Source: a virus
Virus record (IMG/VR): IMGVR_UViG_3300031951_000083
Span: 1 to 64,000 of that record
Reading direction: 5' to 3' (one strand)
DNA length: 64,000 nt
A program made the position numbers and the translations under genes. Positions 1 through 33,932 of this stretch are shown here, piece by piece. A model generated the notes under the pieces. The model saw only the letters and a list, made by a program, of their open reading frames with translations, searched no databases and was not told the origin of the DNA. The stretch's first letter is position 1. Each line of letters begins with the position of its first letter.

Positions 1-3000
1 ATCTAGCCAACACTGCTCTGTTCTGAATACCATCCAAAGAGATAAGATTTCCATAGTTCTGAGGGAAATCAAAATATGAAGCAGCTCTATAAATCAACCA
101 GCTATTCACTCTATTGTCAGCATCAATATTCTGAGAATCAGAATAGATTGCTCTGAATGGATAGAATGTATAACAAGGTTTGTCCCAATCAATTGGAAGG
201 TGTGTAAATGTATTTTCTCTGTTTTGCTTAGAGAATGTTGTATTATAGTAGTAAGTGTTGTCCTGAGCAATTGACACAAAGTTTTCTTGTAACCAGTTGT
301 CAGGAATACCTGTACTCACGTGTGGCCAGAAGTCACCCTCTCTATTGTTGAAAGCTTGACGTAAGTCTAAGTTGTATGAGCTCTCACAATAGAAATTAGG
401 AATGCCATAAGCAAACAGATAGAAATATCCATCATAGAATGTTCTGTTAGGATTCTTATCTGCAGCTACAGGAGGTACAGAGTTTGGACCAGGCTCTTGA
501 CTATTTGGACAATCAAAGTTGTGTGCCTTGTATGAAATGATATTTGAAAGCACACCACCAGCACTTGTGTAATCTTTCAGAATAGAACGTGCTGAGTGCC
601 AATACTTTGGATAGGCAATGTTACCAATCTCATCATAGAATATGTCACTATCATCAGGAGCATTCACTCTATTGTCAATGAAGAATGGAAGCTTTGTCTT
701 GAAAGCAAATCTGCTGATGAATGTATCACCACCAAATACTACTTGTTCACTTGTTCCTCCTGAGCCAATTAGATATTGAAATCCAGTATCTACAGTATCG
801 TATGAGTAGATTTGTCCATACTGATTTAAGAATACATTCTTGATAGATGCGTAGTAAGAAACTACTGTAATATCTTCTTCTTTAGCAGGAGCATCACAGT
901 TACCTATGCTAGATATAGTAAATCTTGATCTATCTGTAACTCCTGTAGGAATTACGTTAGGACTTTCATTTGCAAAAGGAAGAGCTGGTTTGTTTAAATC
1001 AGTTCTCAGATAGACAGATGATTCTCTTTGGAAGTTGTTAATGTTGTATGTATCATTAACGTTCTGTACACCAGGAATCAAATATCTAGCAATGTCAAGA
1101 TTTCTCTGCTTAACACCTTGGTTATCAGGAACTCCAACACCATAGTTGTAATCAGCAACAGAGTTGAAAGAGTATGCATAATTCTTTCTTGTAATACCAT
1201 TGATATAGATGGTTAGATATGCCTGGTATGCAGCAAACATTGCTGAAGCATTAAATGGCGTAGTTTTGTTACCAAGCTCATTTGAACTATCCAACGCATC
1301 ACGTTGAGCTTCTTCTGTCAATAATTTATACTTGGCATTACCTTTCACTTCAACAAAGTGAGCCTTACCTTTACCAAACATCACACTCTCCAGCTTCAGA
1401 ACATTACCTAAGAATGGTTGTCCAAAGGATGTTTCAGGAGAATTGAACACTTGTCTATACTTCTCTGTAAAACCAGGTTGAGGAGTTTCTGCTTTACAAT
1501 CAGGACCTGTAACAATTACTGGTCCATTGATACACAAATCACCTGAACCACCAACTTTCTGAGGAGCACCTGAACCAGGAACCACATACAAAGTTAGAGT
1601 TGGTCTACTTGGCCAACCATCTACCCATCTTTCAGATGGACCCATGAATATATCATTCCATGCTACACGTGCACCTGGAGGAAATAAACCAGGACAAACT
1701 TGTACTGTCCAAAGTTCATATGTAGAAACACCAACCCCACCTGTAGCAGGAGGAAGTACAACAGGCTTACCTATAGAGCAAAGATTATATGTTCCAGTGA
1801 GTGTATACTTAATCTTAGCCTGTTTGTTAGTGTTACAATCAACATATTGCACTTCAGCAGTTGAATCAGGACCTAAAGTGTTAATAACAACTTGGTACGA
1901 TTCACAAAGCTGTGACCATGCATTATTGTTCACATTGAGAAATGGATCTGAATTCAGATCATTGTATGGATAGTTAGGATAGAAATATGTTTGCTTCTCT
2001 CTTTCATACGTGTTTACGTTTCTCAGAATACCTTTGGCAACAATAGACTTGTTTGTTCCACGATCACCACGAATAATCTTGAATCCTACAATATCATCTT
2101 TCTGTTCACGTGTAAGATTGGATGTTTCAATTAATGATGCAACTTGTTGAACATCAATACGTACACCAATTGGAAATACAGCATCATTACCCATCACCAT
2201 TCCAGCAGCTGTTGTAAACAACTTAGATTCATAAGCTGGACTAATGTTAATGTCAGGAAACTTATGATGTCTGATAGGCTGACCAGCTAAGTCACCCCAT
2301 ACACTTTCATTACAAGGATATGTCTCTATAGATTCCCAATAAGCAAATTCACCATATTGATATGGTCCCTTGTATTCAGGAGCAGGGGAATAACCAGAGG
2401 AAAATCCTGTTACAGAACCTGTATTATAGATTTTCCAATATGAGCTATAACCTATTCCTCCTGATGTGTAATCAGGTTCACCTATAAAATCAGGATTAGT
2501 ATTCGGTACATCTGGTTGTGAAAGTTCAGAATTATTTTTAACTCTACCAGGAATATGGAAACCGTCTGTTTGCTTACCGTTTCTGAGTAAGAAAACTATT
2601 TCAAAAGGATATACCTCATCTCTCAAGTAACTTCTGAGATTCGTAGCATTTAACTCATCTGCATAGTTTTCTGTTGCAGGGATTCTCCATGTTTCCCACA
2701 TCAATTCTATCTTACTAGCAATGCTCTGATAGTTGATTCTATCAATAGAAGTAAGATTGTCCCAAACCAGAACATCTTGCACATTTGTCAAATCTTGTGC
2801 AATATCATAAAAAGGAAACTTCTCAAATATATCATTGATGCTCAATCGAATCTGACTAACATTCTGGCCAGTGTACGTGATTTCCTTCTGAGGACTATCA
2901 ATATAGTATGTACCGATAAGCTCAACGGAAGTGATGGCATTTACAGTTTGTATCACTGCAAGATTGAAGTATTGATACAAACCACTATCCTCTAAGTTCT

Positions 3001-3760
3001 TGACACTCAGAACGATAGACTTACCGACTGGATAATTGAAGTTTACACTTGTAATTGCTGGGTCAGCAATAGGAGTGGGATTGGTAACTGAATAATATGA
3101 TGTATACGGATTACCTTGAGGATCACAATATTGAATAGCAAACTGATATGTACCAGCTTCCAGATTACCTGTGCTACTAACATTAACTACTTCAAGTTCT
3201 GGAATCTTGAAATTAGGCTGAAGTTTCAGTTTGTTACAATCAAGTTCCTCTGTATAATCAGGATCACAAAGAGATGTTCCAGGAGTAATTACCTTTGGAA
3301 CATTCTCAATATCCATGTATCTTCTAGGATTATATCCATCAGTCCAATAGATTTCAGTTGTACAGTTTGTAATCTTGTGTGCAATCTTATGGATGGGGTA
3401 GTTTACATTAAAATTAAGACAAGGTGCACTAGCAAGCACACGATAGACACAATCATTATTCTCCATATATCCAATCTGGCTAGCACCATCATCTGGATTT
3501 GTAATAAAGAATATGTGTTTGTTCTTCTCTTGAATAAAGTGACTACCTATAAGCACAAAGCCAGAAGGGAATGTAACGCAAAGTTCATTCCCAGGCTCAT
3601 TCTGATAGTTTACAGAATTAGCATCATAATTCTCGACAACAGCATTCAATGCATATGTCAACTTACCCTTAGGGATCTGGTTGACAGTCTGGTCCATGTT
3701 AAGACCAGTGGTAGCATTGTTATACTCTTGTCTTATGTTACCTTGTTCTTGTTCAGCCAT
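1..3760 (-). CDS. tail stabilisation protein (crAss-like Tstab), 3' end outside window
   Basis: An open frame of more than 1,250 codons runs from the ATG at 3760 to the window edge, so the C terminus is missing. Sequence seen: an N terminus beginning MAEQEQGNIRQEYN, the stretch IYWTDGYNPRRYMDIENVPK, and near the end YLFAYGIPNFYCESSYNLDLR. These resemble the large stabilisation protein of crAss-like phages, which belongs to the portal-tail assembly. It follows the tail tubular gene with a 6-base gap, as expected in that group. The family call is from memory of conserved segments. That it is a large virion protein is much surer than its exact role. Confidence 0.8.
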   Translation of the reverse strand, partial: MAEQEQGNIRQEYNNATTGLNMDQTVNQIPKGKLTYALNAVVENYDANSVNYQNEPGNELCVTFPSGFVLIGSHFIQEKNKHIFFITNPDDGASQIGYMENNDCVYRVLASAPCLNFNVNYPIHKIAHKITNCTTEIYWTDGYNPRRYMDIENVPKVITPGTSLCDPDYTEELDCNKLKLQPNFKIPELEVVNVSSTGNLEAGTYQFAIQYCDPQGNPYTSYYSVTNPTPIADPAITSVNFNYPVGKSIVLSVKNLEDSGLYQYFNLAVIQTVNAITSVELIGTYYIDSPQKEITYTGQNVSQIRLSINDIFEKFPFYDIAQDLTNVQDVLVWDNLTSIDRINYQSIASKIELMWETWRIPATENYADELNATNLRSYLRDEVYPFEIVFLLRNGKQTDGFHIPGRVKNNSELSQPDVPNTNPDFIGEPDYTSGGIGYSSYWKIYNTGSVTGFSSGYSPAPEYKGPYQYGEFAYWESIETYPCNESVWGDLAGQPIRHHKFPDINISPAYESKLFTTAAGMVMGNDAVFPIGVRIDVQQVASLIETSNLTREQKDDIVGFKIIRGDRGTNKSIVAKGILRNVNTYEREKQTYFYPNYPYNDLNSDPFLNVNNNAWSQLCESYQVVINTLGPDSTAEVQYVDCNTNKQAKIKYTLTGTYNLCSIGKPVVLPPATGGVGVSTYELWTVQVCPGLFPPGARVAWNDIFMGPSERWVDGWPSRPTLTLYVVPGSGAPQKVGGSGDLCINGPVIVTGPDCKAETPQPGFTEKYRQVFNSPETSFGQPFLGNVLKLESVMFGKGKAHFVEVKGNAKYKLLTEEAQRDALDSSNELGNKTTPFNASAMFAAYQAYLTIYINGITRKNYAYSFNSVADYNYGVGVPDNQGVKQRNLDIARYLIPGVQNVNDTYNINNFQRESSVYLRTDLNKPALPFANESPNVIPTGVTDRSRFTISSIGNCDAPAKEEDITVVSYYASIKNVFLNQYGQIYSYDTVDTGFQYLIGSGGTSEQVVFGGDTFISRFAFKTKLPFFIDNRVNAPDDSDIFYDEIGNIAYPKYWHSARSILKDYTSAGGVLSNIISYKAHNFDCPNSQEPGPNSVPPVAADKNPNRTFYDGYFYLFAYGIPNFYCESSYNLDLRQAFNNREGDFWPHVSTGIPDNWLQENFVSIAQDNTYYYNTTFSKQNRENTFTHLPIDWDKPCYTFYPFRAIYSDSQNIDADNRVNSWLIYRAASYFDFPQNYGNLISLDGIQNRAVLAR

Positions 3761-3766
3761 GTCTTA

Positions 3767-4738
3767 TTAATTATTTCTTCTCCAACCATATCTGTTAATA
3801 CGGTTAGGTAATTCGTACATATTAAATCTGTTCAAGTCATTCTTTATCCTACGCTGTTTGGCCCAAGGATCTTGCTTCTTGATTTCAATATCAGCCATGA
3901 TGAAAGCTTCTTCAGCTTGTTGTTTGTAGTAAATAAGCTTTTGCTGTAGCTGATTAAATGTCTCATCATTAGTTTGGTTCGTGAGGGTTTCCATCATCTT
4001 ATACTTGATGAATGCCTCAACATATTCTCTCACACGAAAGTTGTCTGGAATTAGCTGATTTCCTAGATTGTCATACTCAGTTGCATAGAAAATCAAGTGC
4101 ACCACTCCATTGCGGAAGTTTGTTACAAACTTATTGTCTCTGATGTCAAAGCTATCATAACCAGCAGAACCAGGTGTAAATTCACGAAGAGGAGGAGCTT
4201 CCTGATAGAATTCCCAGTTACTTGTGTAATCTACAGCACAGTTCTTTTGAGCAGATATGTTACCAGGTTTTAGTAAATATTGTCTACGATATAGTACAGG
4301 AGCTTCGTTATTAGTCTTGTACACTGTCTGGATCAACTCAGGCATACAGCTACCATCACAACCCACATTTCCACAACAAGGACTAGGAATTGCACAATCT
4401 GTTACAATTGGACTCACTTGAATAGTTGTTTCTGTTGCAGCTTGTGAGTAGAATGAATTTGCCTGTTGATATGGAAAACCATTAATTGCTGTACAAAGCC
4501 ATGCCTCACGAACAGCATAGAAGTTGTCTGGAAGTCTAGCTTCGTAATCATTGATGTACAACACTTCCTCTTGAATGACATAGGTTGCCCTGCCCAGTTT
4601 TCTTAGACACTTGTCGAGATAGGTAGGAAACATCAAATCATCTATTGCACCTGTATCGAAGTAGCTTTTAAACTCTTCCTTTACAGTTGAATAGATAATA
4701 TCAGGAGAAATGAAGTTATATTTGTAATAGTATGACAT
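3767..4738 (-). CDS. tail tubular protein, P22 gp4-like (crAss-like Ttub)
   Basis: The product is 323 aa. The N-terminal half (IIYSTVKEEFKSYFDTGAIDD, then PTYLDKCLRKLG) has the look of the gp4/T7 gp11 tail tubular or head-completion family, which forms the ring below the portal in podoviruses and crAss-like phages. A Cys-rich insert (residues about 110-135, CCGNVGCDG) may bind metal, and a basic tail rich in Arg and Asn ends the protein. It lies between an IHF-like gene and the stabilisation gene, the usual crAss-like order. Family assignment is by eye. Confidence 0.75.
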   Translation of the reverse strand: MSYYYKYNFISPDIIYSTVKEEFKSYFDTGAIDDLMFPTYLDKCLRKLGRATYVIQEEVLYINDYEARLPDNFYAVREAWLCTAINGFPYQQANSFYSQAATETTIQVSPIVTDCAIPSPCCGNVGCDGSCMPELIQTVYKTNNEAPVLYRRQYLLKPGNISAQKNCAVDYTSNWEFYQEAPPLREFTPGSAGYDSFDIRDNKFVTNFRNGVVHLIFYATEYDNLGNQLIPDNFRVREYVEAFIKYKMMETLTNQTNDETFNQLQQKLIYYKQQAEEAFIMADIEIKKQDPWAKQRRIKNDLNRFNMYELPNRINRYGWRRNN

Positions 4739-27968: not shown

Positions 27969-28581
27969 ATGACAAAGTTACCACTACTTACCATCTTGCT
28001 AGAAAACAAAAATCATGTAGAGCAAGAAGCAGCGTTAGAGCTTTTGCGTAAAAAAGGTGTTCCTGTTTGGGGTAAATTTAAAATTTCCAGATGAAAATTA
28101 TCCCTATATATGTTGGGATGGAAAACATTTGGTTCAAACAAAAGGTCAACTGCATTATGATCGTACAGTGACATCCATTACAGAATTCATTTCATTGTTT
28201 ACAACATCTGAGAAAACAGTGATTCTCAACGATCAATATACAGCTAAAATCAATTATGATGAAAAAGTTGTAGAAGTGGGTTGTCAGAAAATTGCTTTTG
28301 AAAAAGTCAAAGAGTTGTATGATGGAATAGTTAATAAAGAGATTCCATTAATAAAAGAAATGACATATGAAGAATGGATGACTTTTCTTCCACATCACTA
28401 TGTTGAAAGTGCATTGAAATATGTAAGAAAAGATCCTAATAAGTGTAAAAGTGGTGTTAAAACTTTACATGAAGCTTTGCATGGTGCATTTACATGGTGC
28501 GCAACAGAAGAAGGACATGACTATTGGTCTTCGTTGCACAAAAAACTCACAACAGAGTATTACAATAAAACAAAATCATAA
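27969..28581 (+). pseudogene. VGCQ-motif family gene broken by a frameshift
   Basis: The ATG at 27969 opens a frame (MTKLPLLTILLENKNHVEQE...) that ends at a TGA (28092-28094) after 41 codons. The +1 frame continues with FPDENYPYICWDGK and the rest of the protein to 28581. The intact paralogue at 28982 has LVDLLRKYGV and FPDDEYPYIYW in one frame. The shift maps to the A run at 28080-28083; removing one A restores a fused product. C-terminal motif: VVEVGCQKIAFEKVKEL. Either a real inactivating indel, an assembly error, or programmed shifting. Confidence 0.65.
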
Positions 28582-28592
28582 AATCAAACTAC

Positions 28593-28979
28593 ATGAAAAA
28601 GCGTTTACTACCAAGCGAGAATATCGCATTGTCTGTTAAGTCAGCAATTGCACAAAATGCAGTTATTAATTTCTTCAGAGCAAATCGCATTGAAGTTTAT
28701 GAAGAAACCACCCAATTTGATCCTGAATATCCCTATTTGTATTGGGATGGTGAAGATTTGCATTTGTGTCAGACATCAGATTTTGATGATAAGAAAGTTG
28801 TTGACACTGTTGAGGAGTTTCTGGAGCTGTTCTTCAGCTACTATCCATCATTGCAATTGAATGAAGAATATACAGCATACATTGATCCTAAAAAGGAAAT
28901 AGTTACCATTGGCAGTGAGGAAATTCCTTTTGAAAAGATCATGGAGCTTGCAAAAATTGTAGATAACACAAAATCGTAA
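28593..28979 (+). CDS. VGCQ-like family protein, unknown
   Basis: The product is 128 aa. It shares with its neighbours the FDPEYPYLYWDGED segment, an LQLNEEYTAYI strand, and the C-terminal GSEEIPFEKIMELAKIV, the IPFEK signature of the family, here with GS in place of GC. It starts 11 bases after the frameshifted copy. Function unknown. Confidence 0.62.
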   Translation: MKKRLLPSENIALSVKSAIAQNAVINFFRANRIEVYEETTQFDPEYPYLYWDGEDLHLCQTSDFDDKKVVDTVEEFLELFFSYYPSLQLNEEYTAYIDPKKEIVTIGSEEIPFEKIMELAKIVDNTKS

Positions 28980-28981
28980 TT

Positions 28982-29365
28982 ATGAAGCTGAAAAAGCACT
29001 TGCCTGAATTCAGTATTGGATTTAATAATCCAAGCGCAATTGAACAGGAAGCATTAGTGGACCTCTTACGCAAGTATGGGGTCTGCATTTATGCTGGCAC
29101 AGAATTTCCTGATGATGAATATCCATACATCTATTGGACTGGAACAAAGATTGTGCAAACAAAGTATGGTACTGGCAAATATAAAACTGTCTCAACCATT
29201 GCTGAATTTGTTGCATTCTTCTTGGAATCTCATTTACAGGAAATACAGCTTAATGAGGGTTACAAAGCTGTCATCAATTATGAGACTAAGACAGTTGTTG
29301 TGAACGGGGGAATGACTATTCCTTTTGAAAAGATTCTCGAACTAGAAAAAAACATCAATCAATAA
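28982..29365 (+). CDS. VGCQ-like family protein, unknown
   Basis: The product is 127 aa and the best reference for the broken copy upstream: ALVDLLRKYGVCIYAGTEFP, DDEYPYIYWTG, IQLNEGYKAVINYETKTVVV, IPFEKILELEKNI. It is separated from the previous gene by 2 bases. Function unknown. Confidence 0.63.
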   Translation: MKLKKHLPEFSIGFNNPSAIEQEALVDLLRKYGVCIYAGTEFPDDEYPYIYWTGTKIVQTKYGTGKYKTVSTIAEFVAFFLESHLQEIQLNEGYKAVINYETKTVVVNGGMTIPFEKILELEKNINQ

Positions 29366-29383
29366 TCTCAAAAACCACAAATC

Positions 29384-29770
29384 ATGAAAACGTTTAAAGT
29401 AGACGAAGCATTTATTAAAGAAGCATACAAAGTTGCAAACAGAGAATGGAGAGAGAAACTGGAAGAACAATTTCCAGAGGCGTTTAAGAAGGAAACCTTC
29501 TTGGACAAAATTTACAAAACAGTGAATAAAGAGCCATACGATCATTCAAAACAATACATTTTCATCCAAAATGGTTATCTGGCAGTGAGAATGCCTACTG
29601 CTAACAGAGAATGGTCTATGGAAAACTTCGCATTCATCAACGATGTGTGTACCAAGTTTCCTGAAGCATATCCTGTTCATGGTAAGCAATATCTTAGTGA
29701 AGTTAACGATCACGAAAAGTACATGGATGGTGAAACCTATCAGCTCGTAAACATCAAACATTACGTTTAA
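29384..29770 (+). CDS. protein with the MKTF-EAY-FPEA module
   Basis: The product is 128 aa. The N-terminal 35 residues (FKVDEAFIKEAYKVANREWR, EQFPEAFKK) reappear as an internal module in the 263-aa gene at 30666. The rest is a mixed fold with no recognised motif. It is followed by a terminator. Function unknown. Confidence 0.6.
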   Translation: MKTFKVDEAFIKEAYKVANREWREKLEEQFPEAFKKETFLDKIYKTVNKEPYDHSKQYIFIQNGYLAVRMPTANREWSMENFAFINDVCTKFPEAYPVHGKQYLSEVNDHEKYMDGETYQLVNIKHYV

Positions 29771-29790
29771 CACAGCATTCAATAACAAAT

Positions 29791-29814
29791 AAAGGGCCTT
29801 CGAGCCCTTTTTAA
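29791..29814 (+). terminator. intrinsic terminator
   Basis: AAAGGGC (29791-29797) pairs with GCCCTTT (29804-29810) around CTTCGA, followed by T residues. Confidence 0.88.
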
Positions 29815-29824
29815 ATTTCATTTT

Positions 29825-30328
29825 ATGGCAGTGTATGAATCATTCAATAGTCTTAACAGTAAGACGTTAAAAGCAAATGATCAGCTCATTTTTAAAGGTG
29901 GAGTAGGATATGTAGAACATGCTTATATCATGTTCAATCGTTCAACAAACAATCGTATTGTATTTACCGCAATGGGATTAGATGCAGAAAAACTTGCATC
30001 AAAAGTATATGGTTATGGACATCATGGTGGTAGTTGGCCTACAGCAAAAAATCATGATTTTGAAGCACTCACCAGACTTGCACTTGTTGTATTTGCATTT
30101 GAAGAAGGTGCAGAATCTGTAAAATTGAAAATGCCTGATGGTAAATGGGTGAATATAAATCGTAACAAATTCATCTTGAAGAATCCACCACCAACTTTTG
30201 ATATTAGAGTGGGTACCTATGGTGCTAAATACAGTGGTAATGAACTTCAGGTAGGTTGTCAGAAGATTCCTTTCAAGAAGGTAGAAGAGGTGTATAAGAA
30301 AATGCTTTCACTCAGAAAAACCAAATAA
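29825..30328 (+). CDS. protein with C-terminal VGCQ motif
   Basis: The product is 167 aa. The N-terminal part is a compact fold (TLKANDQLIFKGGVGYVEHA, GYGHHGGSWPTAKNHDFEAL) and the last 30 residues carry NELQVGCQKIPFKKVEEVY, shared with the small protein families on both sides. The combination suggests that the VGCQ element is a mobile C-terminal module. Function unknown. Confidence 0.6.
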   Translation: MAVYESFNSLNSKTLKANDQLIFKGGVGYVEHAYIMFNRSTNNRIVFTAMGLDAEKLASKVYGYGHHGGSWPTAKNHDFEALTRLALVVFAFEEGAESVKLKMPDGKWVNINRNKFILKNPPPTFDIRVGTYGAKYSGNELQVGCQKIPFKKVEEVYKKMLSLRKTK

Positions 30329-30329
30329 C

Positions 30330-30641
30330 ATGTATCAATGCATTAAAACTTTCACTGCAAGTAATGGTAGACAATATGTTAAAGACCAAGCAGTTAGCGT
30401 GTATGGATATAGAGAACTTTCCTCTCTAGAACAAAGAAACTTCGTTATCATGCCTGAACGCAGATCAGATGATGATGATGATAGTGGTATTGGTAGTATC
30501 ATTGATACGGCTGTAGCAGTTTCATCTCTGTTCAACACCTTCAGTAGTGGAGACAGTGGTGATGGCAGTTCATCTTCTGATACCTTTGGAGGATTCGATG
30601 GTGGTGATTCTGGAGGAGCAGGTGCATCTGGTGATTGGTAA
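30330..30641 (+). CDS. small protein with Ser/Gly/Asp-rich tail
   Basis: The product is 103 aa. The first 45 residues fold (FTASNGRQYVKDQAVSVYGY), then a run of Asp, a short hydrophobic stretch (IGSIIDTAVAVSSLFNTF) and a Ser/Gly/Asp-rich tail ending GGAGASGDW. Similar tails are common in Bacteroidota phage proteins. It follows the previous gene by one base. Function unknown. Confidence 0.6.
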   Translation: MYQCIKTFTASNGRQYVKDQAVSVYGYRELSSLEQRNFVIMPERRSDDDDDSGIGSIIDTAVAVSSLFNTFSSGDSGDGSSSSDTFGGFDGGDSGGAGASGDW

Positions 30642-30665
30642 TTTTCTCATTCAAAAACCCAAATC

Positions 30666-31457
30666 ATGCAAAACAAATTCGTTGTAGGCGGTAAATATAT
30701 CGCCAAAAGTAAGTCTGTTGGAGATCCTTTTGATGAATCTAACGTTTTACGTAGAGCAAGAGAAAAAGGTCAACCATTTCTCTACTTCAAAGGTATTGAC
30801 AAAACACATGACGGAGAAAAAGTGCTCATTTTAACAGAAAAAATGGGTACAGGTGGAGATTTCTTTCTTCCTCAAGATGTAGAAGTGTATCTGGAAGTTG
30901 GGGAGAAATACACTCCAATTGACAAAACAGCTTATGGACATGAAGGACTTGAGCGATCTGAAAACTGGAAGGATGCTCAGAAATTAGACCAACCTTTTCT
31001 GTATTATGTTGAGACAGAAAAAGCACGTAATTTCCATGTGCTTTCTTATTTAGAAGAGAAGAAGTATGGAGACTATTTCATGATAGACGACATCATTCCT
31101 TACATTCCAGGAGCAGAAATTTTAGAATTCAACATTACAAAACCTCAAAAACCCAAAGAAGAAATGAAAACATTTGAAGTGAGTGAAAAATTCATTCAAG
31201 AAGCTTATGATTCAGCATGCAGTGAATGGAAACAAAAAATCAAGGAGAAGTTTCCAGAAGCCATTGTAAAAAAGCCATTTAATTTTGATAAGTCTTGGAC
31301 AGTTACAACAAGTAATCAAGGTGACAAACCAATTATAATTGGTCAAGGTTGGGCACCTGATGGTAAAGAATTTGAGTGCTTGGTTGTGAATGATGGCTGG
31401 GAAATGAGAGTTTCAGAACACAGTGGTCGTCAAGTGATGGAATTCTTCAGAAAGTAA
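30666..31457 (+). CDS. modular protein with internal duplication
   Basis: The product is 263 aa. Residues about 1-75 and 78-150 are copies of one domain: VGGKYIAKS...QPFLYFKGID...GGDFFLPQDVEVY and VGEKYTPID...QPFLYYVETE...YGDYFMIDDIIPY. The rest (from residue 167, MKTFEVSEKFIQEAYDSA) repeats the module seen in the gene at 29384. Internal duplication plus module sharing points to recent gene growth by recombination in this area. Function unknown. Confidence 0.6.
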   Translation: MQNKFVVGGKYIAKSKSVGDPFDESNVLRRAREKGQPFLYFKGIDKTHDGEKVLILTEKMGTGGDFFLPQDVEVYLEVGEKYTPIDKTAYGHEGLERSENWKDAQKLDQPFLYYVETEKARNFHVLSYLEEKKYGDYFMIDDIIPYIPGAEILEFNITKPQKPKEEMKTFEVSEKFIQEAYDSACSEWKQKIKEKFPEAIVKKPFNFDKSWTVTTSNQGDKPIIIGQGWAPDGKEFECLVVNDGWEMRVSEHSGRQVMEFFRK

Positions 31458-31467
31458 ATCAATTCAT

Positions 31468-31497
31468 GCTCCAGAGGAAATAACAATCCTCTGGAGC
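31468..31497 (+). other. 11-bp hairpin without T tract
   Basis: GCTCCAGAGGA (31468-31478) pairs with TCCTCTGGAGC (31487-31497), 8-base loop, located between two genes. It may protect mRNA ends. Confidence 0.6.
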
Positions 31498-31523
31498 TAT
31501 TCACATCAACAAAAGAAAATAAC

Positions 31524-31886
31524 ATGGAATACTCATTTGTAATTACAGAAAAGTATCAGTGGGAAACAATTGTCGCACTGGCAAAAGCTCAAGGAATTAA
31601 ATTTTGTAACACTTACTTAGAAGAAGGATATGAACAATATCCAACTTGTGTTCTCAACTTAGCAGTTCCTGAAATCTTTGGATCAAGAAGCACAACTTCT
31701 TACAAAACTGTCACTTTTGAAAGATTTCTGAAACTGATGGTTCAGACAAAAGTGGTTCAGATGCAACTCACAGATAATTACGAAGCAAAAATCATCACTA
31801 GTGAAAATGTGGTGAAGGTTGGTTGTCAAACTTTCTCATTTGACAAGGTGAGAGAACTTGCTACTTTGGTAAAAGAACATATGTAG
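31524..31886 (+). CDS. VGCQ family protein, unknown
   Basis: The product is 120 aa. It keeps the family C-terminal half (MQLTDNYEAKIITSENVVKV, then GCQTFSFDKVRELATL) but has a different N-terminal half (EYSFVITEKYQWETIVALAK). A terminator follows, then the tmRNA. Function unknown. Confidence 0.6.
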   Translation: MEYSFVITEKYQWETIVALAKAQGIKFCNTYLEEGYEQYPTCVLNLAVPEIFGSRSTTSYKTVTFERFLKLMVQTKVVQMQLTDNYEAKIITSENVVKVGCQTFSFDKVRELATLVKEHM

Positions 31887-31961: not shown

Positions 31962-32361
31962 GGGCCCGTATTGGTTTTGACAGCAAAGGAGTGGGTATGT
32001 ACACATGCAGAGAGATGATACTGTCTCTTAATACTGTATCGAAAAACAAATGCTAAGACTCGTTCTCAGCGTGTAGCAGAAGGTGAAGCTATCCTGGCTT
32101 CTATCTTCCAGACTGAAGCAGTAGCTGCCTAAGTCCTACGGGGTAGTTCATACCTGGCAACATAAACTGAACAAACTGTTTTCCTGGTTTTCTCAAAACT
32201 AGGTGGTGGAGCAGTCACAAACCAGTGACTCCAAAATCCTTACCGCACTCTTAGGATATAAGTGAGTGTTTACGGTGCAGCAGCAATGCAGTACTAAGCA
32301 TGTGAGACGTTGTATGTACAAACTATTTGTTTGGACAAGGGTTCGACTCCCTTCGGGTCCA
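31962..32361 (+). ncRNA. ssrA: transfer-messenger RNA (tmRNA) with long proteolysis tag
   Basis: The 5' GGGCCCG (31962-31968) pairs with 3' CGGGTCC (32354-32360), followed by discriminator A and no encoded CCA. The T arm AAGGGTTCGACTCCCTT precedes it, and the 5' domain has GGTTTTGACAGC, as in tmRNAs. The internal frame ends TAA at 32130-32132. Bacteroidota tags usually begin GE, and starting at GGT (32082) gives GEAILASIFQTEAVAA, 16 residues with a typical AVAA degron end. It rescues stalled ribosomes and tags nascent proteins. The exact resume codon is an inference. Confidence 0.9.
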
Positions 32362-32388
32362 CTTAGTTGTTAGTAGATTGGTAACAAA

Positions 32389-32645: not shown

Positions 32646-32762
32646 ATATCTATGGGTGTATGTGTTTATTGCGTTGGGCGATGCCCATAAATACAATTTC
32701 AACTGGGGTTTCTGGGAAACACGCAAACCAAGTGAATAGCCCACACAAAAGCCCATAGATAT
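32646..32762 (+). ncRNA. structured RNA A, closed by an 11-bp helix
   Basis: ATATCTATGGG (32646-32656) pairs perfectly with CCCATAGATAT (32752-32762). Inside, GGGC/GCCC forms a hairpin near 32675 and GGTTT/AAACC pairs near 32717-32729. No gene lies here. It is the first of a row of RNAs running up to 33,932. Confidence 0.6.
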
Positions 32763-32853
32763 ATAAGATAAGTTCTTTAAGATAAAAAACAGGGAAAGGA
32801 TGATAGTGATGATGGATACAATTCCTGCTATTATTGCGCCCTGTTAAGTTCTT

Positions 32854-32960
32854 TGTAGTTGGTGTGGCTCGGTGGGGTTGTGTAAAAGCAAAACTACCTT
32901 GCAAGCCATGATTTAGTCTTTGCCTAAAAAGTAGGGAGAATCCCCCTACCACCAACTACA
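32854..32960 (+). ncRNA. structured RNA B, closed by an 11-bp helix, tRNA-like ends
   Basis: TGTAGTTGGTG (32854-32864) pairs perfectly with CACCAACTACA (32950-32960). Next to it are TGGCTCGGTGG, like a tRNA D arm, and TAGGG/CCCTA with a 7-base loop in the T-arm position. A normal anticodon arm is not found, so it may be a degenerate tRNA or a tRNA mimic. The 90 bases before it (32763-32853) hold no clear gene. Confidence 0.5.
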
Positions 32961-32965
32961 TTTTT

Positions 32966-33040
32966 AAGCGTGGAATGGCTACCAATTAGAAATAATTGTA
33001 CGTGGTTAAAGCCTAATAATAAATCCAACCACGCTTTTTT
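32966..33040 (+). ncRNA. structured RNA C or long-loop terminator
   Basis: AAGCGTGG (32966-32973) pairs with CCACGCTT (33029-33036), ending in T6 (33035-33040). The 55-base interior has no gene. It could be a small RNA with its own terminator. Confidence 0.5.
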
Positions 33041-33833
33041 AAGTTCTTTAACAACTACTGATTGACTACAAACAATACTCTTGAGCAGTTATCAACGGCT
33101 GTAAATCCTAAATAGTTCAGGATGAATCTTAACCATGTCAGAGTAAGGAGAGTTATCTCACAGTTCTAAGATGTGAGTGGTTTGAGTCGATGTGGCAAGC
33201 GGTTACCCGAGGTAACTTAATCATGAATCAACATGAGCAACGCTTACTACCCTACTTAGAAGGCAGTAGTTGTTATCTTCTATGTTGTCTGTGAATCACA
33301 TTAAACAGTCAGTCGTTAAACATTGATACGACTTTAAACAAAGAAGGTTACCCTGAATTGACAGGGTGTTAATTGATGTCCAAGAGCCTTAGCAAAGTTC
33401 GCAACTTTGGGTGAATCTGGAAATTAACGGAGTAATCCACACGTGTTGTTCCCTTGAGCAAGGAATATAACAGAGCAGGTTAAAACTACTTAGGCATTAT
33501 CCTGACAACACGAATGAGTGCTTCTACTTACCCTAGTCAGAAATGATGGGTGGAGTAGTTATTTTTTAATCTGATGAAAAATTTATCAAGATACACGTTG
33601 AAATCTACCAACGGTTAATTAGAAGGTTATAGTAATATAACCCACAGGTGAGGATGTATGAGATAAGCCTCTGTTTACTGTGAGAAGTTCTCAGCAAGTA
33701 GTTAAAACGGATAAGTTCAAAGTCGTATCCCAAAGTACAGGTAATTAACTACGTGACCCTACTCTTACAGAATGAAATGCAACGTCATGAATTTGATGGC
33801 TGATTCTGTAAGACAAGAGGGTGCTAAATAAAC
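33041..33833 (+). ncRNA. large structured RNA, about 790 bases (GOLLD/ROOL-like candidate)
   Basis: There is no plausible gene over about 790 bases, but at least ten helices are visible: CTCACA/TGTGAG (33157/33172), GTTACC/GGTAAC (33202/33211), AGTCGT/ACGACT (33311/33328), ACCCTG/CAGGGT (33350/33362), CAAAGTT/AACTTTG (33393/33403), CGTGTTGT/ACAACACG (33442/33505), TACTTACCC/GGGTGGAGTA (33525/33548), GGTTAT/ATAACC (33625/33637) and CTTACAGAAT/ATTCTGTAAG (33764/33803) with outer CCCT/AGGG. It leads straight into a tRNA-like element. Giant phage RNAs of the GOLLD and ROOL classes have this size and sit next to tRNAs; membership is inference. Confidence 0.65.
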
Positions 33834-33932
33834 AGTCAGGTGGCGGAACTGGCTAGACGCGCTATGATTCATCTCAAGTGTCTTGGAAAATGCATTGACC
33901 TTGACGTACAGGTTCGAATCCTGTCCTGACTA
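33834..33932 (+). tRNA. tRNA-like element with long variable arm (Leu-like), anticodon unclear
   Basis: The acceptor AGTCAGG (33834-33840) pairs with CCTGACT (33925-33931), discriminator A at 33932. The D-arm TGGCGGAACTGGCTAGACGC is that of leucine tRNAs, and the T arm ACAGGTTCGAATCCTGT is perfect. At 99 bases it is about 12 longer than normal, and I cannot fold a canonical 5-bp anticodon stem. CCA is not encoded. It may be a tRNA with an unusual anticodon region or a tRNA domain of the large upstream RNA. Confidence 0.6.

Follow-up and report, generated by a model that had tools for sequence, protein, structure and literature searches.

The window analyzed here is a 64,000-nucleotide stretch of viral DNA, positions 1 to 64,000 of an 86,339-base virus record in IMG/VR. 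Its middle part carries, on the plus strand, a phage tmRNA gene, a region of about 790 bases (33041-33833), and a tRNA-like gene that follows it directly (Table 1). The initial annotation had read this region as a large structured noncoding RNA without a credible gene, leading into a tRNA-like element. As seen, no open reading frame (ORF) of 60 aa or more is present, the longest having 42 aa on the minus strand, and a check for a conserved protein-coding frame across the stretch found none. The predicted RNA fold reached -214.4 kcal/mol, compared with -179.3 ± 5.8 kcal/mol for 20 shuffles (z = -6.1). Both helices that had been singled out were also found, namely, CTTACAGAAT/ATTCTGTAAG (33764-33773/33803-33812), with its outer CCCT/AGGG (33757-33760/33818-33821), and CGTGTTGT/ACAACACG (33442-33449/33505-33512); they are the P7 and P4 helices, respectively, of the RNA family described below. 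The reading of its size and start had to be qualified. The RNA is large, and part of the 790 bases consists of a homing-endonuclease scar and a duplicated domain. The RNA may begin downstream of 33041, the conserved core starting near 33311 and identity to the nearest relative extending back to 33255 (100% over 66 nt, 33255-33320, with L282); for 33041-33254, no significant match was obtained in any DNA fetched. The description of the genome as crAss-like holds only broadly, the terminase being 41% identical to that of Leptolyngbya phage Lbo-JY46 and approximately 30% identical to those of Crassvirales.

Table 1. Coordinates of the noncoding RNA, its parts, and its RNA neighbors in the window
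Feature	Coordinates	Strand	Remarks
Phage tmRNA	31962-32364	+	RNA core lies some 950 nt further downstream; Rfam, 78.5 bits
Candidate 5' extension with predicted long-range helix 33049-33058/33266-33275	33041-33310	+	From folding; membership in the mature RNA uncertain
P1 hairpin, AGTCGT-TAAACATTGA(TA)-ACGACT	33311-33333	+	Loop TAAACATTGA near-invariant in the family
P2b hairpin, ACCCTGAATTGACAGGGT	33350-33367	+	Kept in the long-P3 subclass
P3, long form, GTTAATT.../AATTAAC closing GG-AGTAAT-CC	33368-33438	+	Helix varies in step in L214, L264, and L328
P4 (33442-33448/33506-33512), enclosing P5 and exchangeable hairpin v3	33442-33512	+	
P5 hairpin, kissing loop TTGAGCA	33449-33465	+	Inside P4
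AATGAG and truncated kissing strand TGCT	33513-33522	+	Broken by insertion; TGCTCAG in the closest intact copies
Homing-endonuclease cassette remnant	33523-33624	+	
Hairpin ending TTATTTTTT (T run)	33524-33567	+	In cassette remnant
14-codon ORF, MKNLSRYTLKSTNG and stop	33574-33618	+	In cassette remnant; matches NUMOD4/HNH C terminus in L101 and L324
Second P3-P4-P5-kissing domain	33625-33694	+	
Second P3	33625-33642	+	
Second P4	33643-33647/33678-33682	+	
Second P5	33650-33671	+	
Second-domain kissing strands	33659-33663/33689-33693	+	
P6, AAGTAGTTAA (33696-33705) with TTAACTACG (33745-33753)	33696-33753	+	
P7, GACCCT...CTTACAGAAT/ATTCTGTAAG...AGGGTGCTAAA	33755-33828	+	Family 3' end
tRNA-like gene	33834-33932	+	Neighbor, outside the RNA; acceptor, D, and T arms intact, anticodon region abnormal; RF00005, 36.1 bits; no ARAGORN call

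Several other elements surround the RNA. The predicted tag of the window tmRNA is unusually long, with 26 aa (AKTRSQRVAEGEAILASIFQTEAVAA), tags in relatives ranging from 10 to 32 aa. Four more strong hairpin RNAs are found at 32646-33045, with the closing helices ATCTATGGG/CCCATAGAT, AACAGGG/CCCTGTT, GTAGTTGGTG/CACCAACTAC, and AAGCGTGG/CCACGCTT, the last with a T run. Repeats resembling TTAAGTTCTTTA lie between or after these hairpins (32768, 32844, and 33039); a role of TTAAGTTCTTTA as a phage promoter was rejected, since its count with two mismatches is no more than expected by chance. Further upstream (27969-31886), several adjacent small proteins look paralogous, with FPDE-YPYIYW and VGCQ-IPFEKV motifs in common. 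The tRNA-like gene of the window resembles those at L171:2067-2222 and L188:8280-8137 (minus strand), all three having intact acceptor, D, and T arms and a long variable region where a normal anticodon arm would be. Many such genes, often with AGTCAGG/CCTGACT, occur in these phages, and ARAGORN fails to call most of them.

Relatives of the RNA were sought by sequence pattern. Among 80 loci related to the DNA polymerase of the window, one (L076) had a 27-base match inside the RNA. The motif TTCCCTTGAGnAAGGAA was then found in at least 120 stretches in IMG/VR, nearly always within GTGTTG...CAACAC, and three more patterns were used, built on the kissing strand (among the matches listed), on P1 only (80 stretches), and on P7 only (48 stretches). 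The four patterns combined gave at least 124 distinct complete copies, including some in contigs of more than 300 kb. The carriers are one cultured phage and more than a hundred phages from the environment. Within species genomes of bacteria and archaea, the pattern was limited to three metagenome-assembled contigs, and among named phages the consensus matched only Cellulophaga phage phi14:2, at 2912-3359. In that phage, 1.7 kb (NC_021806.1, 2905-4600; L303 and L360) holds the RNA and a tmRNA, and RefSeq has dropped hypothetical ORFs there. Scans with Rfam 15 at gathering and relaxed thresholds, covering the window and relatives, returned only tRNA, tmRNA, and chance matches; between 32300 and 34500, no Rfam family other than tRNA and tmRNA appeared even at an E value of 5. 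A literature search, with little coverage of subscription journals and most preprints, found no published description of the RNA.

Two forms of the RNA exist. The longer one, here called form B, has a defined order of elements. From the 5' end, these are P1 (AGGYTAAACATTGA..CCT), AAAGATA, P3 with the loop AGTAAT, and P4 (TGTGTTG/CAACACA), which encloses P5 (TTCC-C-TTGAGAA-A-GGAA) and a variable hairpin; AATGAG, TTCTCAG, P6 (AAGTAGTTA/TAACTAC), and P7 (GACCCT...AGGGTGCTAA) follow. The P1 loop UAAACAUUGA is near-invariant, and P7 ends with GGGUGCUAAA. The loop of P5 pairs with a strand 3' of P4, forming a kissing pseudoknot (UUGAGAA/UUCUCAG). An additional pairing of CAUU in the P1 loop with the AAUG before the kissing strand gained no support, as L132 and L271 change one side only. 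The window copy is of form B, containing in order the P1 loop UAAACAUUGA, the AGUAAU loop, P4/P5, AAUGAG, P6, and GACCCU...GGGUGCUA; the family model R1 matches it with an E value of 7.3e-9, fitted to the second P3-P5 copy. The core measured 124 to 846 nt in the 88 distinct full copies among the matches listed, the longest holding an endonuclease ORF, and intact cores span approximately 125 to 590 nt. The variable hairpins occupy fixed points and are exchanged between phages. We also observed a shorter form A, a unit of 75 to 153 nt with only P4, P5, the variable hairpin, and a hairpin bearing the kissing partner, which lies 3 to 5 nt from a tRNA-like gene in 18 of 47 distinct units. Form A units were seen in tRNA arrays of L171, L121, L153, L162, L192, L195, and L103, with up to four per locus. 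An automatic search at 85% found no cassettes common to forms A and B, the end rule used being one that misses some cases, such as a cassette shared by L157 and L166 that was recognized by eye.

Next, the helices were evaluated by covariation. In a first set of 37 copies, P3 was 100% paired with double changes at 5 of 5 pairs, and the whole structure scored 0.162 versus 0.078 for shuffled alignments. Since P5 and the kissing strand had played a part in choosing these copies, a second set was used, with 30 sequences found through P1 alone, from which copies with a different P5 hairpin length were excluded by hand. In this alignment, 97.0% of cells were paired, compared with 81.0% after shuffling and 37 to 45% after sliding; double-change cells numbered 82 versus 12.7, and covariation was 0.431 versus 0.118, none of 500 shuffles reaching any observed value. 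Both sides change in 16 of the 23 pairs. P4 is wholly replaced in some relatives (CATGCAG/CTGCATG in L321 and ACGTGAG/CTCACGT in L334), and P6 also covaries. The kissing pseudoknot likewise covaries in a few copies: TTGAGAA/TTCTCAG is replaced by TTGGAAA/TTTCCAG in L315 and by TTGAGCA/TGCTCAG in L188 and L282. The compensating base changes for which the initial annotation had suggested a test are present in homologues, and its alternative of a new class is supported, no Rfam 15 model matching this covarying family.

The window copy departs from the family in its middle part. Full NUMOD4/HNH endonucleases ending in LPRYKLKSTNFN and a stop occur in L101 and L324 in the same setting as the window ORF, another lies inside the RNA of L332, and a shortened remnant is found in L197; the insertions are at two different sites of the RNA gene. 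A P3-P5 domain is found 3' of the endonuclease in L101, L324, and L197, and the window is 77.6% identical to L324 over 192 nt across the scar junction. The relative L282, which has the same downstream ORF, shows the plain form without the scar and without the tRNA-like gene. The match of the scar to L101 and L324, together with this plain form, therefore identifies the window RNA as a scarred member. The copy is enlarged by a homing-endonuclease cassette, now a 14-codon scar followed by a second P3-P5 domain, and the scar is presumably what was left of a full cassette once the endonuclease had been deleted. The first kissing strand is broken to TGCT (33519-33522), and the kissing strands of the second domain could pair with each other, which would make up for the lost pseudoknot. 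That homing endonucleases invade the RNA gene also speaks for a recurrence of its sequence in different phages. Overall, these results indicate that the region is a real, large folded noncoding RNA gene and a damaged member of an uncatalogued phage RNA family; the part from 33311 to 33828 is almost certainly a copy of this family, which no Rfam model matches.

To describe the genomic setting, neighbors of the copies were tabulated. In the RNA loci, 101 tRNA-like genes were on the same strand and 2 on the opposite strand. Among the matches listed, 7 of 88 copies begin at most 3 nt from the end of a tRNA-like gene, and a tmRNA lies 6 to 201 nt downstream on the same strand in 11 of 124; 17 of the 18 copy-tmRNA pairs found share one strand. 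Among 50 contigs of at least 70 kb, a tmRNA above the Rfam cutoff was present in 24 and started approximately 40 to 200 nt downstream of the RNA on the same strand in 8. With random placement, a rough calculation expects well under one such adjacent case; some of the eight contigs share ancestry (G071 and G074 seem to come from a single phage), leaving perhaps five to seven independent cases. A tmRNA occurred in 7 of 24 control contigs, which are kin of a tmRNA-bearing phage. The tmRNA of phi14:2 (4031-4502) scores 46.0 bits, slightly below the cutoff. The majority of copies do not directly adjoin a tRNA or tmRNA. The RNA is rare among polymerase relatives (3 of 43), and 24 pairs of copies (31 copies) are mosaic, with one cassette at least 90% identical and three or more other segments below 60%. 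The patchy presence and the mosaic copies therefore indicate that the RNA moves and recombines, and the patchiness also shows that it is dispensable for many relatives. No conserved protein neighbor, which would be a sign of cis-regulation, was found, the largest neighbor cluster covering 8 of 88 loci. The RNA is a stand-alone gene, without a conserved protein neighbor, patchily distributed, lying on the tRNA and tmRNA strand, and often directly upstream of the tmRNA.

This setting points to translation takeover. By analogy with other phage RNAs, the RNA is most likely a stand-alone structural RNA of tmRNA/tRNA islands that may act on translation or as an RNA assembly like GOLLD and ROOL; a translation-linked role for such a structural RNA is a tentative proposal, and for family identity and translation-linked role taken together we estimate a probability of roughly 0.4. 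The RNA would be transcribed together with the tmRNA/tRNA island, be freed by tRNA processing at loci where tRNAs adjoin it, and fold into a compact RNA or RNA-protein particle, which might aid the phage in translation takeover, e.g., by attaching to ribosomes or by keeping hold of tmRNA and tRNAs. A more far-reaching version, which we consider rather doubtful, is that GOLLD and ROOL are joined by a third class of large and widespread phage RNA, in which a fixed pseudoknotted core with swappable hairpins travels with tmRNA and tRNAs as an RNA machine on the host translation apparatus, and form A units would be processed linker RNAs in tRNA arrays.

Two serious rivals overlap with a translation-linked structural RNA. 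The RNA might form an RNA-only homo-oligomer, a cage or particle like those of GOLLD and ROOL, in which the conserved loop pair would link separate molecules instead of joining parts of one. The large size, the phage tRNA-island setting, the kissing-loop chemistry kept under compensatory change, and the co-residence with GOLLD fit this idea; however, form A has both kissing loops in one unit of 75 to 153 nt, suggesting an intramolecular contact, and we regard oligomerization as rather unlikely. Alternatively, a counter-defense or decoy RNA would present exchangeable hairpins on a fixed scaffold that titrate out an RNA-binding factor or RNA-targeting nuclease of the host. Hypervariable and mosaic peripheral hairpins (the 24 copy pairs), the patchy presence, and the nearby tRNA-like genes with abnormal anticodon regions would suit a decoy, yet the most conserved features are those of the core and not the variable loops; we consider it somewhat less probable still.

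A self-cleaving or tRNA-processing ribozyme, comparable to the theta ribozymes found next to phage tRNAs, might be suspected from the long conserved unpaired segments and from copies abutting tRNA-like genes (within 3 nt in form B and 3 to 5 nt in form A). Nevertheless, most form B copies have no adjacent tRNA, the 5' bases self-pair as hairpin P1, unlike the P1 of HDV-like ribozymes, and no Rfam ribozyme matches, so that this reading is improbable. For a riboswitch-like, cis-regulatory leader of the next gene, an ATG follows the RNA 3' end closely in some loci, but the downstream genes are unrelated between loci, and tRNA, tmRNA, or opposite-strand genes are often next; we consider it very improbable. 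The endonuclease ORFs in L101, L324, and L332 and their remnants in L197 and the window could recall a self-splicing intron with its homing endonuclease. The endonuclease, present in few of the 124 copies among the matches listed and at two different sites, looks like an invader of the RNA gene; in addition, the genes or tRNAs flanking the copies are complete, and no group I or II intron model matches, so that an intron is, if anything, even less probable. Membership in GOLLD or ROOL, or divergent relatedness to them, as the initial annotation had considered, has the similar niche in its favor, that of large phage RNAs that lie close to tRNA islands and contain pseudoknots or kissing loops (PMC12286853). 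The models speak against it: no Rfam model matched the RNA up to an E value of 5 in the window or 10 in eight relatives. The GOLLD model, which is RF02032 (gathering score, 150 bits) and not of the RF01998 type that had been named, does not touch the family RNA in any of 17 contigs. It scores 315.7 bits on a separate true GOLLD (L359:1589-1987, minus strand; with a tmRNA and 13 tRNAs) in the 310-kb contig of L188, so the search works and the two RNAs are separate genes of one phage. The ROOL model (RF03087), run without a positive control, matched none of the 17 contigs at an E value of 10, nor did relaxed Rfam scans of the window and eight relatives find it. Such membership is, accordingly, hardly credible.

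The stand-alone RNA described here can be compared with several known systems. Only a small number of large structured RNA classes are known from bacteria, and assembly into a 14-mer nanocage is a feature of GOLLD. The family shares with GOLLD the nature of a large phage noncoding RNA in tRNA islands, as illustrated by the tRNA-like gene at 33834-33932 and the tRNA islands of relatives. In the contig of L188, tmRNA (288.5 kb), GOLLD (290 kb), tRNAs, and the family RNA (305.3 kb) all lie on the minus strand within approximately 22 kb; the two RNAs differ in having neither sequence nor covariance-model similarity. ROOL, too, is a large RNA of phages, contains pseudoknots, and is often located close to tRNA islands (PMC12286853); it differs by the lack of a model match in the 17 contigs mentioned. 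Ribosome pull-down and RNA cages have been reported for GOLLD, which is no more than an analogy here, and what GOLLD, ROOL, and OLE do is regarded as poorly understood (PMC12286853). HDV-like theta ribozymes are phage RNAs abutting tRNAs (PMC10879173); they are small, with a nested double pseudoknot and a cleavage site that adjoins the tRNA, whereas the family RNA has another fold and usually no tRNA neighbor, and no HDV-family Rfam match was obtained in the window or relatives. The tmRNA (RF00023), a frequent same-strand neighbor, is a separate gene whose model does not match the family RNA. The copy in phi14:2, a cultured phage of Cellulophaga baltica #14, makes expression, structure, and function directly testable. 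With its strong covariation, over a hundred members, link to tmRNA, and an island in common with GOLLD, the RNA represents an apparently undescribed class; by Rfam, it is a new family, and by kind, it joins the large phage RNAs.
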